This document shows, piece by piece, positions 6,502 to 16,224 of a stretch of DNA of 42,013 nt. The stretch covers positions 1 through 42,013 of the IMG/VR virus record IMGVR_UViG_3300002460_000069; one strand, given 5' to 3'. Under the pieces are notes generated by a model. It did not search any database. It was given only the letters and a program-made list of their open reading frames with translations, and was not told the origin of the DNA. Numbering within the stretch: the first letter of the stretch is position 1; each line of letters starts with the position of its first letter. Source of the DNA: a virus. Made by a program: the position numbers and the translations under genes.

Positions 6502-6771
6502 CTAACAAAATCTAACCCAACAAGATATCCCCAAGTTAGAGTTAAAAAGGTATGCTTCTTTAGCCCAAAAGCAGAATGATGATACAGTGCAATTATGCTC
6601 TGACCCTAAAAGATGAGGCCCTCTTTTTTTCGCGATTATACGGTATCTAAGGCAATCCGTTGCCGATTGGGAATTATAAAGAACGTATTGCGACCCGATA
6701 CCTATAACCAACCGGATATTCCCCTTCCCGTCTGAATATTTATGGTTTAGTTTCAATAAATTTTTTTTCAT
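6502..6771 (-). CDS. uncharacterised 89-residue protein
   Basis: Starts MKKNLLKLNHKYSDGKGNIR, with β-strands (IRLVIGIGSQYVLYN) and three Cys in the C-terminal half. Its start overlaps the end of the Lar-like gene by 32 nt in another frame. Possibly a small phage domain binding nucleic acid (basic, β-rich), but no family is recognised. Confidence 0.5.
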   Translation of the reverse strand: MKKNLLKLNHKYSDGKGNIRLVIGIGSQYVLYNSQSATDCLRYRIIAKKRGPHLLGSEHNCTVSSFCFWAKEAYLFNSNLGISCWVRFC

Positions 6772-7312
6772 CTAAACTCCTTTCCTCAAACGCCTCGTGG
6801 ATGGCTTGGGCTAAACTATCAAATATTGTCCATATTAAAAAATCTTCATTTGTTTTTGCATGTTGTGCAAATTTTTGATTCCTAGCAGTAACTTTTACTC
6901 TATCGAATCCTAAATGTTTTTTAATTACTGTCTCAATTTCCTCTACGCTAGGGATCGCGGGCTGACCAAAGTTTTTAACTAAAACATCTTGTATAAAACA
7001 AATCAATACACCAAATTTTTCGTGATATGCTTCTAACGTATAATGAGTTTTTCTACAATATCTTTGTACGGCATCAATAATCTTTCTCTCATCCAACGTA
7101 CTCAACCCCATCGGCTCGGCGCGGGTGTTCCATACTTTAACAGCTTCTTTTTTTCCTAATTCACAGGAAAAATTGCCTGTTGAAGGTAATAAACATTTCC
7201 TTTCAGTACATCTTATTTGGTAAAAAATTTTTCCATTGCAATCAAACCCTTGTTCAAAAAATTTAGGCTTCTTACCGCAAAATGGACATTTTTTAAGTTC
7301 TTTACTTTCCAT
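6740..7312 (-). CDS. Lar-like zinc ribbon fused to a helical domain
   Basis: About 190 residues from the ATG at 7312 (GAGAGG 6 nt upstream). An ATG at 7333 that overlaps the stop of the preceding 28-codon frame is an alternative start. Residues 1-50 are a Lar-like ribbon: KKCPFCGKKP, CTERKC, and the closing KEAVKVWNTR. The remaining 140 residues are helical, including CRKTHYTLEAYHEKFGVLIC and NFGQPAIPSVEEIETVIKKH. The last motif recurs in the gene at 10412 (NFGVPPIPEVQELKNTIEK), so the two share a domain. Its 5' leader contains the solitary CRISPR-like repeat at 7368-7399. An anti-restriction role is plausible. Confidence 0.65.
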   Translation of the reverse strand: MESKELKKCPFCGKKPKFFEQGFDCNGKIFYQIRCTERKCLLPSTGNFSCELGKKEAVKVWNTRAEPMGLSTLDERKIIDAVQRYCRKTHYTLEAYHEKFGVLICFIQDVLVKNFGQPAIPSVEEIETVIKKHLGFDRVKVTARNQKFAQHAKTNEDFLIWTIFDSLAQAIHEAFEERSLDEKKFIETKP

Positions 7313-7329
7313 TCCGCACCTCTCTGCCT

Positions 7330-7416
7330 TCATAGCAAACAATCCCCTTGATCATCTGCTTCAGCATGTTTCAATCCACGCCCCTGCACGAGGGGCGACT
7401 CGTCTAAATTATCCAT
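7330..7416 (-). CDS. 28-codon frame that reads through the CRISPR-like repeat
   Basis: ATG at 7416 with a strong ribosome binding site (GGTGAGGAG, 7 nt away). It encodes MDNLDESPLVQGRGLKHAEA followed by DDQGDCLL. Codons 6-16 are the CRISPR-like repeat itself. The TGA overlaps a possible ATG of the Lar-like gene (ATGA). It could be a leader peptide, or an accident of placing the repeat after an initiation site. If ribosomes translate it they would unfold the repeat hairpin, linking translation to exposure of the RNA element. Confidence 0.4.
   Translation of the reverse strand: MDNLDESPLVQGRGLKHAEADDQGDCLL
7368..7399 (-). CRISPR. solitary type I-C-like CRISPR repeat (copy 1)
   Basis: A 32-nt element. 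On the minus strand it begins GTCGCCCCTCG, continues TGCAGGGGCG and ends TGGATTGAAAC. A 7-bp stem (nt 3-9 with 15-21) and 5-nt loop precede an 11-nt single-stranded handle, matching type I-C repeats that Cas5d cuts at the stem base. There is no second repeat within hundreds of bases, no leader and no cas gene, so this is not an array. It lies in the 5' leader of a Lar-like gene and inside a 28-codon frame. Confidence 0.8.
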
Positions 7417-7517: not shown

Positions 7518-7931
7518 TTATTTATACCTAGTCGCTTCTAAAATAGGAATATTTGCTTCAGTCGGAATATAGACGACTGTTTTATTTACATCTTTTCCTG
7601 CAACATCCGTAATCCATAAATATCGAAGATATTGTTCATTCTCTTTAAGACTTTCTCCGATAATTTTATTTGCTTTAGCCACACCTTCAGCCCTAAGTAC
7701 CTCCGCATCGGCTAACAAACCTGCAGAATCTTTTTTAGCTTGAGCCTCCTGAACAGCAACCTTTTTACTGTAATCAGCTTTTGCTAATTAGGCTTGCCCA
7801 GCTAAACCTTGTTCCCAAACTGTATATTGAGGCATAATTGACATAAATAATATTCTAAACACAATAAAAGAAATCATTATCGCAATTGTTACTTTTACTA
7901 CATCAATCTCACCATCTTTTTTTCTAAACAT
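7518..7931 (-). pseudogene. membrane-anchored SPFH/prohibitin-tail-like protein with an in-frame TAA
   Basis: Codons 1-47 give MFRKKDGEIDVVKVTIAIMI, a transmembrane helix, then PQYTVWEQGLAGQA. A TAA at 7788-7790 interrupts. The same frame continues LAKADYSKKVAVQEAQAKKD, then LLADAEVLRAEGVAKANKII and YLRYLWITDV to IPTEANIPILEATRYK. This is the phage-type minimal prohibitin-like protein (YxVW...GxAxLAxA...A.E..RA.GvA.AN.II...L..N..YLRYLWI...YIPTEA.LPIL). Homologues typically have Glu near the stop, so GAA to TAA is the simplest change. It could be a nonsense mutation, a readthrough site or an assembly error. An internal start may still make the C-terminal part. Confidence 0.7.
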
Positions 7932-10882: not shown

Positions 10883-11145
10883 TTTTTCCTTTTTTTCGGT
10901 TTAACCGACCATGCGGGATAAGCCCGCCATCGATATTTTTTATCAAAATTTTCTTGCTCTCGCAACATTCGGCTAAACTCTTTTTGTTTTTCTTTATTCA
11001 CTGAACTCCGCGTCCCCTGTTTTATCCTACCAGCATTTATACTACGTCGCTCTATCTCACACAAAACTCTTGGAATATTTTTTTTATATGTTCTATCCCA
11101 TTCATTCTTGCCACCCAATTTCGGTTTGGACTTCTTTGGGTTCAA
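10879..11145 (-). CDS. small basic protein, start uncertain
   Basis: Up to 88 residues, very basic: GGKNEWDRTYKKNIPRVLCE, SVNKEKQKEFSRMLREQENF, and the end SVKPKKRKK. The longest version starts at a TTG inside the helicase gene without a good ribosome binding site; a shorter product from an internal start (MLREQEN) is possible. The charge suggests nucleic-acid binding. It overlaps both neighbours, as expected in an operon. Confidence 0.45.
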   Translation of the reverse strand: MNPKKSKPKLGGKNEWDRTYKKNIPRVLCEIERRSINAGRIKQGTRSSVNKEKQKEFSRMLREQENFDKKYRWRAYPAWSVKPKKRKK

Positions 11146-12178
11146 TTTTTATCGGCTTTTTTTTCGCCCAGTGCGGTAAAAATTGTTCTTCAATGGCATT
11201 CCCCGATGAGGGCATCCCGAATTTATCCAAAGAGTGAAGCGTATAATCCTTGGAGTAATTTCCCGTGTACGAATCAAAATTTATCAATATCCCGCAATTT
11301 GATTTTACGTTTGGAATTTGACTTTTGACAATCCTAAAATAAGTCGGATAAATCCCCGCCGATAAATTAGCTAGTCCAAACGCCGGCGAGATAGTGATCG
11401 CCGCCGTCGCCATTTTAGGAATATTACTCGTGCCATAAAAATCCGCTTGATCCGGCAATCCCCTGTCTTTCATTTTTTTAACCAGATGTGAAATCAAAAT
11501 AACTGGAATGTCATAAAATTGGACAATGTCTCTAACTGATTTTAAAATTTTAGTCAATCCGATTATTTCTTTTTCACCGTCGGGTAAATCAAAATATTGC
11601 AGGTGGTCAATCACAATTAAATCAACGTTGAATGAAGTCATTCTTATAATTTTTTCTCCTTGCATTGTAGGCGTCATACTGTGAAAATCCGTTAACTCTA
11701 TTTGCAACTGCTCTATTCCAAATCCTCTATTTATTTCCGCGGCATAAAAATTGTCCTTATATTTTTCCTGCCATTGCTCTAAAACCTTTGTTTCCACCTT
11801 ATCCAAAATTGTCCCTTTAAGTTCCCCGTTTAACCATTTTCGATAGTCCATATCCACAAACCCGTTTTCCGTCCATCCGTTACCGTAATATTCATTGCGT
11901 ATATCGTGCCATTTTAACCGGCGGATCGCGGCGCGATGACCACCTTCTAAATTAAATAAAGCCACTTTTCGGCCCGCTATGGCATTATGTCTGGCGATCA
12001 TAAGACCGATCTCAGTTTTCCCACTGCCCGAATCCGCCCCAATAACAATCAAATCGTTTTTACGAATACCGTAAAACGCGTCATCTAAGGCCGCGATCCC
12101 GTACCAGCAAAATTTTTTAGGGTCATTTGCTTCCCGTTCCGCACGTTCTTCGGTAAAAAAATCTATAATGTTTTTCAT
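11102..12178 (-). CDS. DnaB-like replicative helicase (RecA-type ATPase)
   Basis: A 358-residue protein. Walker A is GADSGSGKT (residues 47-55), Walker B is VDLIVIDHLQYF (about 184-195), and the sensor-like VILISHLVKKMKDRGLPDQA is typical of the DnaB/Gp4 C-terminal ATPase. The usual N-terminal primase-interacting domain of DnaB is missing, so this is a short phage version that may rely on the initiator for loading. The ATG lies 10 nt downstream of the second CRISPR-like repeat, which occupies nearly the whole intergenic gap; ACGGAAT is the only weak initiation site. Confidence 0.88.
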   Translation of the reverse strand: MKNIIDFFTEERAEREANDPKKFCWYGIAALDDAFYGIRKNDLIVIGADSGSGKTEIGLMIARHNAIAGRKVALFNLEGGHRAAIRRLKWHDIRNEYYGNGWTENGFVDMDYRKWLNGELKGTILDKVETKVLEQWQEKYKDNFYAAEINRGFGIEQLQIELTDFHSMTPTMQGEKIIRMTSFNVDLIVIDHLQYFDLPDGEKEIIGLTKILKSVRDIVQFYDIPVILISHLVKKMKDRGLPDQADFYGTSNIPKMATAAITISPAFGLANLSAGIYPTYFRIVKSQIPNVKSNCGILINFDSYTGNYSKDYTLHSLDKFGMPSSGNAIEEQFLPHWAKKKPIKIEPKEVQTEIGWQE

Positions 12179-12188
12179 ATTCCGTTTA

Positions 12189-12220
12189 GTTTCAATCCAC
12201 GCCCTTGAACGAGGGGCGAA
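12189..12220 (-). CRISPR. solitary type I-C-like CRISPR repeat (copy 2)
   Basis: 32 nt, 29 of 32 identical to the copy at 7368. The minus strand begins TTCGCCCCTCG, continues TTCAAGGGCG and ends TGGATTGAAAC. The basal 5 bp of the stem and the full 11-nt handle are unchanged; one change (C8-A16) opens the loop-proximal end. It starts 5 nt after the stop of a 57-aa gene and ends 10 nt before the helicase ATG, so it must be transcribed within the replication mRNA. There is no spacer-repeat unit around it. Confidence 0.78.
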
Positions 12221-12225
12221 CCGCT

Positions 12226-12399
12226 TTATGAACTCTCTACTTCATCCAAAATTGGTAAAAATTTTTCACGTCCACCAGTAAGCACAACAATCCAGGCGGA
12301 AAATTCCAAAGCCTCTGCTTTAGTTAATTCTCTCGTTGGGGGCATTAAAATAAGAATGCCGGTAGAACTAATAGATACACCAAATTTATTTCCTTCCAT
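12226..12399 (-). CDS. 57-residue uncharacterised protein
   Basis: Starts MEGNKFGVSISSTGILILMP, then PTRELTKAEALEFSAWIVVL to the end. β-strands followed by a helix (LTKAEALEFSAWIV) resemble small phage proteins of the form 'strand-loop-[ST]-x-E-A-hydrophobic helix'. AAAGGA lies 9 nt before the ATG. It is positioned between the initiator and helicase genes, directly before the CRISPR-like repeat. Confidence 0.65.
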   Translation of the reverse strand: MEGNKFGVSISSTGILILMPPTRELTKAEALEFSAWIVVLTGGREKFLPILDEVESS

Positions 12400-12414: not shown

Positions 12415-13047
12415 TCATATCCCCTCAAATTTTATAAATTTTTTCTCCTTATCCCATTCCGAACATGCCCTGCGGTATGCGGCTTTCCACGATTTCATTT
12501 TGTTTTTGCCTACCATCCAGCCATTCGACTCATAAAAGTCTATAAAGCGGCTTGGCTCTATATTCCCGTTTATCTCGAGTTTGTAAGCCAAAACTTCTTC
12601 TAAAGCTGGCGGTATAGATATATTGTTTTCCTTGTTTTCTTTGTTATACATTGTTCTGTTGTGTCTCTCCGTTGTCTTTTTGTTGTCCTCTCCGTTGTCC
12701 TCTCCGTTGTCCTCATTGTTGTTACTATTTTGATAGTCATTGTATTTAAGTATTGTGATTAAACGACTTGTGTTTGTTTTTTGTTGTCTTATTTGCCCCT
12801 CTATTTCGAACTCTAAAAGTAGTTTTTCTACATAACTTTCACTCATTTTGCAATACCCGACGAGCTTTCTGCGGCCTGTGATCAATTCTCCTCGGTGTAA
12901 ATCAATAGGTTTTCCGTTCCAAACTATGCGATGATCTTTAAACGTAGCCAACAGGAGCAGTGTTATCCATAATTGTAAGCGTTTAGGGTTTTGGTATCCA
13001 TACCAGTCAAAAATTTTGCGTTGTAAAATTATAAATCCAGGAGGCAT
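12415..13047 (-). CDS. replication initiator (DnaD/lambda O-like winged-helix protein)
   Basis: A 210-residue protein. The N-terminal winged helix includes GELITGRRKLVGYCKMSESY and a wing RLITILKYNDYQ. A low-complexity linker (NEDNGEDNGEDNKKT) is followed by a C-terminal motif FYESNGWMVGKNKMKSWKAA, ending RRACSEW, typical of phage replication initiators that recruit the helicase. It precedes the helicase gene, as in lambda O/P-type modules. The linker is encoded by 12-bp iteron-like repeats, a possible origin. No close ribosome binding site is visible at the ATG; GAGGGGG lies 19 nt upstream in a predicted helix. Confidence 0.75.
   Translation of the reverse strand: MPPGFIILQRKIFDWYGYQNPKRLQLWITLLLLATFKDHRIVWNGKPIDLHRGELITGRRKLVGYCKMSESYVEKLLLEFEIEGQIRQQKTNTSRLITILKYNDYQNSNNNEDNGEDNGEDNKKTTERHNRTMYNKENKENNISIPPALEEVLAYKLEINGNIEPSRFIDFYESNGWMVGKNKMKSWKAAYRRACSEWDKEKKFIKFEGI
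12682..12714. repeat. 12-bp iteron-like direct repeats, possible replication origin
   Basis: Two exact copies (12682-12693, 12694-12705) and a 9-bp partial third of GTTGTCCTCTCC (plus strand), inside the initiator gene with an AT-rich stretch beside them (12717-12760). Lambda places its origin iterons inside gene O, so the position is suggestive. The repeats may instead be only a slippage-made linker. Confidence 0.45.
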
Positions 13048-13211: not shown

Positions 13212-13240
13212 ATGATACCATCCCTATTTTTTTGTGTCAA
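13212..13240 (-). promoter_or_regulatory. strong sigma70-type leftward promoter for the replication genes
   Basis: Minus strand TTGACA (13235-13240), 17-nt spacer, TATCAT (13212-13217). The start is predicted near 13205, giving a leader of about 155 nt before the initiator ATG. Confidence 0.82.
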
Positions 13241-13508: not shown

Positions 13509-14009
13509 TTATTCTATCTCCCTAATTTTTTTTAACAATCCTGTCCCGTATTTTAATATTTTAATTTTTATGACGTCCCCTGCGGCCCCTGCGGTCCCTG
13601 CGACGGCCCATGCGGCCCCTGCGGTCTCTGCGACGGCCCATGCGGCGCCCCCTGCGGCCCTTGCGGCGGCCCTTGCGGCCATTGCGTCCCCTGCGGCGGC
13701 CGAATTTCTCGACGTATCATCTGCCAAACTTTTTTTTGCCGCGTCAATTGCTAACCAAGGACGTCTATCGTGTGGGTATTTATTTTCGAAAAAATCTATA
13801 ACTTGTTCTGCTGCAAAAATTGCGTAGGCGAGATATTGCGGCCTGGCCATAATCCGGACGATCAGCCAGTTAGCCCAATCTAATTTTTGGGCGCGTATAA
13901 GATTTTCTACTAACTCTGTTCCGTCGGTGTCAGGATAATTTTCAAGAACCCAATTTTTTCCGTCGGCGCATGCATTTTTTTTATTAAGCCATTTTTCTGT
14001 TATTTTCAT
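13509..14009 (-). CDS. alanine-rich Imm5-like protein
   Basis: A 166-residue protein. N-terminal: [20 protein letters not shown], then [20 protein letters not shown] and [18 protein letters not shown]. This matches the Imm5-like layout (W-L-x-K-x-A-C-x-x-G...W..WL..R) common in phage genomes. The C-terminal third is built of Ala/Gly/Arg/Trp repeats ([20 protein letters not shown]), encoded by GC-rich tandem repeats. Imm5-like domains were named from toxin-immunity proteins; in phages their role is unknown, possibly counter-defence. GC content of the repeat part is strongly above the neighbours. Confidence 0.65.
13573..13700. repeat. GC-rich degenerate tandem repeats coding for poly-Ala
   Basis: Repeated units of the type CCCTGCGGYCCCTGCG and GACGGCCCATGCGGC, including two nearly identical copies about 33 bp apart. 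They form the 3' end of the Imm5-like gene and differ sharply in composition from the surrounding AT-rich DNA. Confidence 0.85.
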
Positions 14010-14898: not shown

Positions 14899-15111
14899 TT
14901 ATCGTTTTAAAATAATATCAAATTCCCACTCCTCACACCGATTTGGTGTAAATCCGCATTTTATTTTTCCCCTTAAAAATTTTCCGCTAATAATTTTATA
15001 ACTTTTTTCTCCGTCGAAAAATCCTTGGTCTGCGAGGCAATTTTCTGCCGCCTCTAAAATCGTTTCCCCGTAATAAATAACTTTATGTTTTTTATTTTTT
15101 TTGGTTTTCAT
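14899..15111 (-). CDS. 70-residue basic protein with shared initiation cassette
   Basis: Starts MKTKKNKKHKVIYYGETILE, with a helix EAAENCLADQGFFDGEKSYK and a final strand EEWEFDIILKR. Initiation cassette GGAGGGCGGCGAGATG. Not recognised. It is one of five adjacent genes that share this cassette but not protein similarity. Confidence 0.6.
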   Translation of the reverse strand: MKTKKNKKHKVIYYGETILEAAENCLADQGFFDGEKSYKIISGKFLRGKIKCGFTPNRCEEWEFDIILKR

Positions 15112-15131
15112 CTCGCCGCCCTCCTGTTTAA

Positions 15132-15284
15132 TTATTTAACCTCTTTAATTTCGATGATTTGATATTTATCGCCAGTCAAAGAGTCAGTGTATATTTCATT
15201 GAGTTTAAAATTTACCATAGTTTGTCCCGTATATATCAATCCTTTTAACATCCCATCTAAGAATTTCCTTTTTATCTCTTTCAT
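15132..15284 (-). CDS. 50-residue protein with shared initiation cassette
   Basis: Starts MKEIKRKFLDGMLKGLIYTG, then VNFKLNEIYTDSLTGDKYQI and an Ile/Glu end: a small β-rich domain. The ATG lies at the end of a 30-bp repeat (15281-15310) carrying the GGAGGGCGACGAG cassette. Function unknown. Confidence 0.6.
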   Translation of the reverse strand: MKEIKRKFLDGMLKGLIYTGQTMVNFKLNEIYTDSLTGDKYQIIEIKEVK

Positions 15285-15310
15285 CTCGTCGCCCTCCCTT
15301 GGTGTTGGTT
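15281..15310 (-). repeat. 30-bp translation-initiation repeat (copy 1)
   Basis: Identical to bases 15903-15932. On the minus strand it holds the end of the upstream gene's stop region, ACCAAGGGAGGGCGACGAG and the ATG of the downstream gene. It thus duplicates a complete stop-SD-start junction before an unrelated gene. Confidence 0.9.
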
Positions 15311-15536
15311 ATTTAATAGACAATTCCGCTATGATATTTTTTGCCGTCGTGATCCCCTCCGCCATCGACATGGCATTCGCGGATTTATAAAAAAAACATG
15401 GTTCGCCTAAAATATTTTTGCACTCCCCGTCCGTCAATCCCGCGATACGGACGGATACGGGAGCTCGGCTGGTATACTGATAGTCCTGTATAGTAGCTGT
15501 GTATTTTGGATAATTTAAAATTATTTTTCTTTTCAT
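15309..15536 (-). CDS. 75-residue protein with shared initiation cassette
   Basis: Starts MKRKIILNYPKYTATIQDYQ and continues RAPVSVRIAGLTDGECKNIL, then a final helix (GITTAKNIIAELSIK). The pattern of strands then helix resembles small single-domain phage proteins that adopt α/β sandwiches. Cassette GGAGGGCGGCGAAATG. Not recognised. Confidence 0.6.
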   Translation of the reverse strand: MKRKIILNYPKYTATIQDYQYTSRAPVSVRIAGLTDGECKNILGEPCFFYKSANAMSMAEGITTAKNIIAELSIK

Positions 15537-15558
15537 TTCGCCGCCCTCCACGCCCCTG

Positions 15559-15906
15559 TTACCGTACGACGTGCCCGTGAGCTAAAAATTTGTACGGGCT
15601 ATTATGTATTTTTATAGTATGATAATAATCAGTCGGATCCTCATATGCATCCCCGTTAATATTTAATAATCCTAAGGCTGAGGCTATGCATACGGCGTGT
15701 AACTCCGTGGTACTGTAGTCGGTTAATGTTTTTCGCCCGTCTATTTTACCTTGATAATTGGAGCATTTTTCTTCTTGCACTGTACATTTTTTCCCCAAAT
15801 TAATGTCATGCCATAATTTTATGATTATTCTTTTTCCTCCACACCATGGATAATCATAGTTTGTTGTATTAGAGTACCACTCTGTTTTATTTTTAGAAAT
15901 TTTCAT
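15559..15906 (-). CDS. 115-residue protein with shared initiation cassette
   Basis: Starts MKISKNKTEWYSNTTNYDYP, includes four Cys (C22, C41, C48 and one in HAVCIASALG) and DPTDYYHTIKIHNSPYKFLA. The ATG belongs to the second copy of the 30-bp repeat. Not recognised; the Cys and His content could indicate metal binding. Confidence 0.6.
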   Translation of the reverse strand: MKISKNKTEWYSNTTNYDYPWCGGKRIIIKLWHDINLGKKCTVQEEKCSNYQGKIDGRKTLTDYSTTELHAVCIASALGLLNINGDAYEDPTDYYHTIKIHNSPYKFLAHGHVVR

Positions 15907-15932
15907 CTCGTCGCCCTCCCTTGGTGTTGGTT
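15903..15932 (-). repeat. 30-bp translation-initiation repeat (copy 2)
   Basis: Exact copy of 15281-15310, again spanning the junction between the stop of the upstream gene and the start of the downstream gene. Identity continues weakly into TATTTAAT on the distal side. Confidence 0.9.
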
Positions 15933-16159
15933 TATTTAATCATTATCTCTGACCGGTATATATAAGCTACAGTATTTTTGTCAATTATTCCGTAAATTTT
16001 GCCCCATGTTGAATTAAATGCCGTGATAAAATTATCTGCTAACACGATTAATCTCTCTGCTGTTGGAGCAAAATTTATTATGTACCGTGATTTACCGCTA
16101 ACAGATGGTAATTTATAATTACCGTGAGCGTCTATCCAATATGTTACGTATTTTTTCAT
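15932..16159 (-). CDS. first gene of the leftward small-gene cluster
   Basis: A 75-residue protein starting MKKYVTYWIDAHGNYKLPSV, then SRYIINFAPTAERLIVLADN and a final strand YIYRSEIMIK. The initiation region GGAGGGGGGCAACGAAATG is a variant of the shared cassette. It is the promoter-proximal gene, about 60 nt from the predicted start of the divergent promoter, so it would be made first after entry. The position suggests an early host-takeover or counter-defence protein, by context only. Confidence 0.6.
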   Translation of the reverse strand: MKKYVTYWIDAHGNYKLPSVSGKSRYIINFAPTAERLIVLADNFITAFNSTWGKIYGIIDKNTVAYIYRSEIMIK

Positions 16160-16224
16160 TTCGTTGCCCCCCTCCTGCGTATCCGCGCCCGGCCCCGCTT
16201 GCCCTTGCCTATTGATCTACCACT

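Follow-up and report, generated by a model that had tools for sequence, protein, structure and literature searches.

Two solitary type I-C CRISPR repeats in the early gene block of a virus as candidate RNA anti-CRISPRs

Introduction

What purpose could a lone CRISPR repeat serve in a virus that is devoid of a CRISPR array, a leader and cas genes? The question is raised by a virus record of 42,013 bases, which was analysed over its full length and is referred to here as the window. Genes for terminase, portal, major head, baseplate and tail fibre occupy its right part, while the left part comprises a leftward block with ERF, YqaJ, DnaD-like, DnaB-like and Lar-like genes. Within this block, a first-pass annotation had described a solitary 32-nt element resembling type I-C repeats, located it in the 5' leader of the Lar-like gene and assigned it to the solitary repeats, some of which are proven RNA anti-CRISPRs (Racr), a class that is indeed documented (PMC10651486).

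Single phage repeats act as RNA anti-CRISPRs: RacrIC1, a type I-C representative from a Bifidobacterium prophage, is co-transcribed with acrIC5 and active alone, and RacrIF1 inhibits through the product upstream of the cut, because this product lacks the 5' handle (PMC10651486). Racr units often adjoin acr genes, which is not obligatory. According to the SRUFinder definition, a solitary repeat unit shares at least 90% identity and coverage with a known repeat, has no other repeat within 100 nt and lies between genes (PMC10651486). The ribonuclease of type I-C systems is Cas5d, which recognises the hairpin together with the single strand 3' of it; after cleavage at the stem base, which produces a handle of 11 nt, the enzyme remains bound to the 3' hairpin (PMC3890593). 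The canonical PAM of these systems is 5'-TTC (PMC7913775).

Two copies of one repeat in the early gene block

Table 1. Repeat copies and surrounding features, with positions in the window
Feature	Position	Strand	Remark
Solitary I-C repeat, copy 1	7368..7399	(-)	Identical to repeats of known arrays
Solitary I-C repeat, copy 2	12189..12220	(-)	29/32; stem base and 3' tail intact, an upper stem pair missing
28-codon ORF reading through copy 1 (MDNLDESPLVQGRGLKHAEADDQGDCLL)	7330..7416	(-)	Ribosome-binding site; predicted from sequence
Lar-like gene, N-terminal Lar_restr_allev domain	6740..7333	(-)	Directly downstream of copy 1
DnaB-like helicase gene	11102..12178	(-)	Directly downstream of copy 2
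57-aa ORF, no recognised family	12226..12399	(-)	Directly upstream of copy 2
DnaD-like helicase loader gene, same leftward block	12415..13047	(-)	
Best promoter-like site upstream of copy 2's block, TTGACA-17-TATCAT, extended -10	13212..13240	(-)	Consensus match only

Copy 1 (GTCGCCCCTCGTGCAGGGGCGTGGATTGAAAC) folds into a 7-bp stem with a 5-nt loop and an 11-nt 3' tail (-12.9 kcal/mol) and is identical at 32/32 positions to array repeats of the metagenome-assembled genome (MAG) JAAYEC01. Chance matches to it with up to three mismatches are expected 0.00 times per window (shuffled windows gave no match). Since these array repeats share contigs with type I-C cas genes, copy 1 is, judged by sequence identity and hairpin, a genuine type I-C repeat and no look-alike. 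The first-pass annotation was also right that array, leader and cas genes are missing, as no other repeat occurs near copy 1 and the phage has no cas genes, and that the element is oriented with transcription, since it lies sense to its neighbours.

As to its solitary nature, copy 1 does stand alone at its locus, but a second copy, missed earlier, is found 4.8 kb away, the two being the only sites in the window at up to three mismatches; no further repeat occurs within 100 nt of either. Read on the same strand, copy 2 (TTCGCCCCTCGTTCAAGGGCGTGGATTGAAAC) differs from copy 1 at three positions and shows 90.6% identity to the arrays of JAAYEC01. Its stem base comprises 5 bp, its 3' tail is complete, and it folds less well than copy 1, with a competing alternative fold; it is probably a weaker or partially decayed version. 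Beyond the 32 nt no shared sequence was seen between the two sites, so that the shared unit is the repeat itself. Both copies are in sense orientation relative to the leftward early genes and precede a gene start by a few to tens of nucleotides. A coding explanation was considered, in that all three differences between the copies affect third positions of a single frame; it was rejected because in this frame copy 2 has a stop just upstream and no start.

With respect to the definition given above, both copies lie within the identity threshold and are isolated over 100 nt. Copy 2 takes up most of a 47-nt gap between the 57-aa ORF and the DnaB-like helicase gene and is thus intergenic, while copy 1 lies inside a 28-codon ORF of a size usually ignored by gene callers. 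The ATG of this ORF is situated 17 nt ahead of copy 1 and follows a GAGGAG ribosome-binding site at 7 nt spacing, and the 5' leader location proposed earlier had overlooked this frame and has to be given up. Its stop and a start codon of the Lar-like gene overlap in ATGA; this gene seemingly has a ribosome-binding site of its own, and the inner ATG of MESKELKK offers an alternative start.

The Lar-like protein carries the domain of the Lar restriction alleviation family (PF14354) at 31.6 bits, just above the cut-off of 28.6, and matches PHROG 599 (E 8e-10); the domain covers about 60 of its 196 residues. The family assignment made before is retained accordingly, but the probable anti-restriction role is not supported as a function, for it would depend on one Pfam domain barely past its cut-off. 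That one transcript might counter two defences, or that the repeat might sense host CRISPR activity, is speculation drawn from position. No relatives of the Lar-like protein were found in viral contigs or cultured phages, and none of the DNA around copy 2, while for the DnaB-like helicase a single viral contig (31%) and a single cultured phage (22%) were retrieved. Scans of the neighbours with Pfam, PHROGs and PADLOC recognised no acr, aca or defence family. No clear promoter was found close to copy 1, and the number of promoter-like sites near both copies does not exceed that in shuffles.

Further peculiarities of the window were recorded. At 7518-7931 (-), a 137-codon frame is interrupted by a single in-frame TAA after 47 residues and then stays open throughout, which reflects either a decayed gene or a sequencing error. 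At 15089-16172 (-), a similar leader surrounds the ribosome-binding site and start codon at five small-gene starts (repeat families D2, D3, D6), and within the ORF at 13509-14009, GC-rich imperfect 9/12-nt repeats (13563-13712) encode an alanine-rich stretch.

Cognate arrays in bacteria

Among 84,980 species genomes, a pattern that admits both copies had matches in three, invariably in the exact form of copy 1. In MAG JAAYEC01 ('Deltaproteobacteria') this form accounts for 7/8 and 23/25 array repeats on two contigs, and genes for Cas3, Cas5d, Cas8c (Csd1), Cas7 and Cas1 precede the array in this order. MAG JAHLLS01 ('Deltaproteobacteria') holds eight identical copies, and MAG JAGLMY01 ('bacterium') one full copy and the beginning of a second at a contig end. 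Cas5d is encoded on the array's contig in all three, in JAAYEC01 at L127:7450-8103. The repeats of these systems share full identity, hairpin and 3' tail with copy 1; unlike them, the phage has no array, leader or cas genes. A link to the phage's host through spacers was sought, but none of 45 spacers matches the window. The exact repeat was absent from the other 154 genomes searched in the first MAG's order, so that the host group is not narrowed by that route, and a repeat search in cultured phages gave no match.

Solitary type I-C repeats in other viruses

In order to place the two copies among their kind, IMG/VR was searched with a general type I-C pattern, which yielded 91 loci, and with a wider one, which yielded at least 120 (survey loci L027-L117 and L190-L235). 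Removal of array members and near-duplicates left 66 independent solitary repeats in the first set and 35, among the matches listed, in the second, 101 in total. Between co-directional genes, 28 repeats were sense and 13 antisense (P = 0.03; among the matches listed, with simple ORF calling); sense placement is thus common, and the placement in the window alone is not special. Nor is the pair unique, since several phage contigs among the matches listed carry two or three dispersed copies, for instance L191 (588, 4266), L218 (862, 4540), 3300031673_000079 and 3300032156_001598. L034 (6750) and L084 (1144) resemble copy 1 of the window, in that a frame whose ribosome-binding site and ATG are found 9-18 nt ahead of the repeat reads through it.

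A second pattern concerns the distance to the PAM. The test was prompted by TTC motifs noticed at this distance in L044 and L068, which makes the first set only partly blind; here TTC occurs exactly 34 nt upstream of the repeat in 9/66 cases (P = 7.5e-7), the strongest result among 7,616 trinucleotide-offset tests on the upstream side. The second set, retrieved later as a replication, had TTC at 33-36 nt in 13 cases against 2.7 expected (P = 4e-6; 35 repeats, among the matches listed). Pooling gives 30 slots with TTC 33-36 nt upstream against 6.8 expected (P = 2e-11; 101 independent repeats, among the matches listed). The downstream flank appears as a TTC-flanked protospacer in only two cases (P = 0.03), and solitary repeats of types I-F and I-E, numbering 8 and 4, were too few for this test. 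In consequence of the TTC excess, viral I-C solitary repeats often abut a protospacer: among the matches listed, a sizeable minority lies where a phage protospacer ends on its PAM-distal side, like the repeat that follows a spacer in an array. No TTC occurs 32-38 nt upstream of either window copy, which are accordingly older, of other origin or tied to another PAM.

Target-site duplications were considered as a general signature as well and rejected: direct duplications flank the repeat strikingly in L044 (8764; 34 nt), L068 (8487; about 26 nt, diverged) and L080 (1651; 14 nt), but across the whole set the effect is only marginal against a within-contig control, and both window copies lack it. 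In L044 and L068, TTC immediately precedes the upstream duplicate. The repeat's final AAAC is followed by a second AAAC in 10/101 repeats among the matches listed (background 0.7%). The close phages L053 (6902) and L100 (3375) have the repeat and everything upstream in common, and L053 contains about 79 extra nt starting from the exact 3' end of the repeat. Finally, the phage of L070:1057-5220 (IMGVR_UViG_3300002219_000012) is distantly related to that of the window (YqaJ 48%, ERF 29% identity); at its contig end, a type I-C array with at least 8 repeats is joined mid-gene to a homologue of window ORF 13509-14009, which is either a real insertion or an assembly join.

Function of the two copies

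The reading that both copies are solitary repeat units which stem from a type I-C host and serve as RNA anti-CRISPR decoys is held with moderate confidence. What is observed at its base is repeat identity, the hairpin, sense orientation in the early block and the existence of cognate I-C systems in nature; transcription, binding and cutting by Cas5d, and inhibition of interference are inferred. In the proposed sequence of events, each repeat would be transcribed within early messages and fold into the I-C hairpin, which host Cas5d would bind and probably cut at the stem base. The upstream fragment, which ends in the 3' hairpin and has no 5' handle, would keep Cas5d and perhaps Cas7 bound, so that a working Cascade would not form.

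The decoy role is favoured by the exact match to array repeats of MAGs that encode I-C cas genes on the array's contig, by the presence of two separate copies with only the repeat in common, by the integrity of the parts recognised by Cas5d (stem base and 3' tail) in both, by sense orientation in the early block, and by the tested I-C precedent RacrIC1. Like RacrIC1, each is a single virus-borne I-C repeat without array or cas genes, sense to its neighbour on the same likely message. The window differs from RacrIC1 in that two dispersed copies are present, the first of them within a small ORF that precedes a Lar-like gene, in that no known acr gene adjoins it, and in that the activity is predicted. 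Against the decoy role speak the missing spacer match, the lack of a clear promoter near copy 1 and of a recognised acr gene nearby, and the poorer fold of copy 2. In addition, ribosomes may disturb the hairpin of copy 1 or reduce its exposure, since its ORF has a good ribosome-binding site. Of the two, copy 1 is likely the stronger candidate.

Alternatively, the copies could be passive relics, brought into the phage when it recombined with host CRISPR arrays and now functionless. This view fits the array-like position, at the PAM-distal end of TTC-flanked protospacers, that many solitary I-C repeats of viruses occupy, and the lost stem pair in copy 2, but copy 1 is perfect, two copies persist and neither bears the TTC signature or a flanking duplication, which makes relics unlikely. 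More improbable still is a cis-acting switch, in which Cas5d cutting of the mRNA would part the small ORF from the Lar-like gene at copy 1, or expose the helicase start at copy 2, and expression would follow host I-C activity. The short distance of both sense-strand repeats to a gene start and the ATGA coupling of the small ORF spanned by copy 1 would suit such a switch; however, sense placement ahead of genes is common among such repeats and requires no switch, the Lar-like gene seems to own a ribosome-binding site, and nothing is conserved around the two copies.

An assembly join of phage and host array sequence in the metagenome is very improbable: the comparison set does contain join-like cases, such as spacer-repeat-spacer in L044, but the window copies differ in sequence, the genes on either side are intact, and TTC at spacer distance and flanking duplications are missing from both. 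Least credible is a minimal CRISPR unit whose downstream RNA would guide against the host or a rival phage, for although a Cas5d cut would leave a 5' handle on that RNA (PMC3890593) and virus-borne mini-arrays exist (PMC11656645, PMC6858448) that likewise place a host-type repeat on a virus (PMC6858448), such arrays consist of at least two repeats around a spacer, whereas neither window copy has a second repeat nearby, so that a 3' handle and a defined spacer are missing, and the RNA after each repeat is the phage's own coding sequence. RNA anti-CRISPR decoys remain the preferred reading, and given that the solitary-repeat strategy is already published, the copies in the window are, on sequence grounds, most likely further Racr candidates.

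Origin and significance

The PAM signature in the survey stems either from recombination with arrays that hold the phage's spacers or from joins made at shared spacers during assembly. For L027/L065 and L191/L218, the identical arrangement is found again in a second contig, but these pairs are 100% identical and may stem from related samples, so that they do not separate the two sources. Tentatively, phages may gain solitary I-C repeats from the immunisation of their hosts: a phage-derived spacer would provide about 34 nt of homology beside an array repeat, recombination at the protospacer would return the repeat to the phage, and there it would be kept as a working anti-CRISPR RNA.

The window locus combines an exactly known cognate repeat with two copies of unequal quality in one phage, and the location of copy 1 within a small ORF makes competition between ribosome and Cas5d testable. 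The signature also warns that some catalogued metagenomic solitary repeats could be joins with host arrays. The PAM at spacer distance constitutes checkable evidence on how viruses come by solitary repeats, a matter that the papers cited here leave unsettled. If the proposed route holds true, each young solitary repeat would mark, on its 5' side, a protospacer once used against the phage (TTC-N33..36-repeat).
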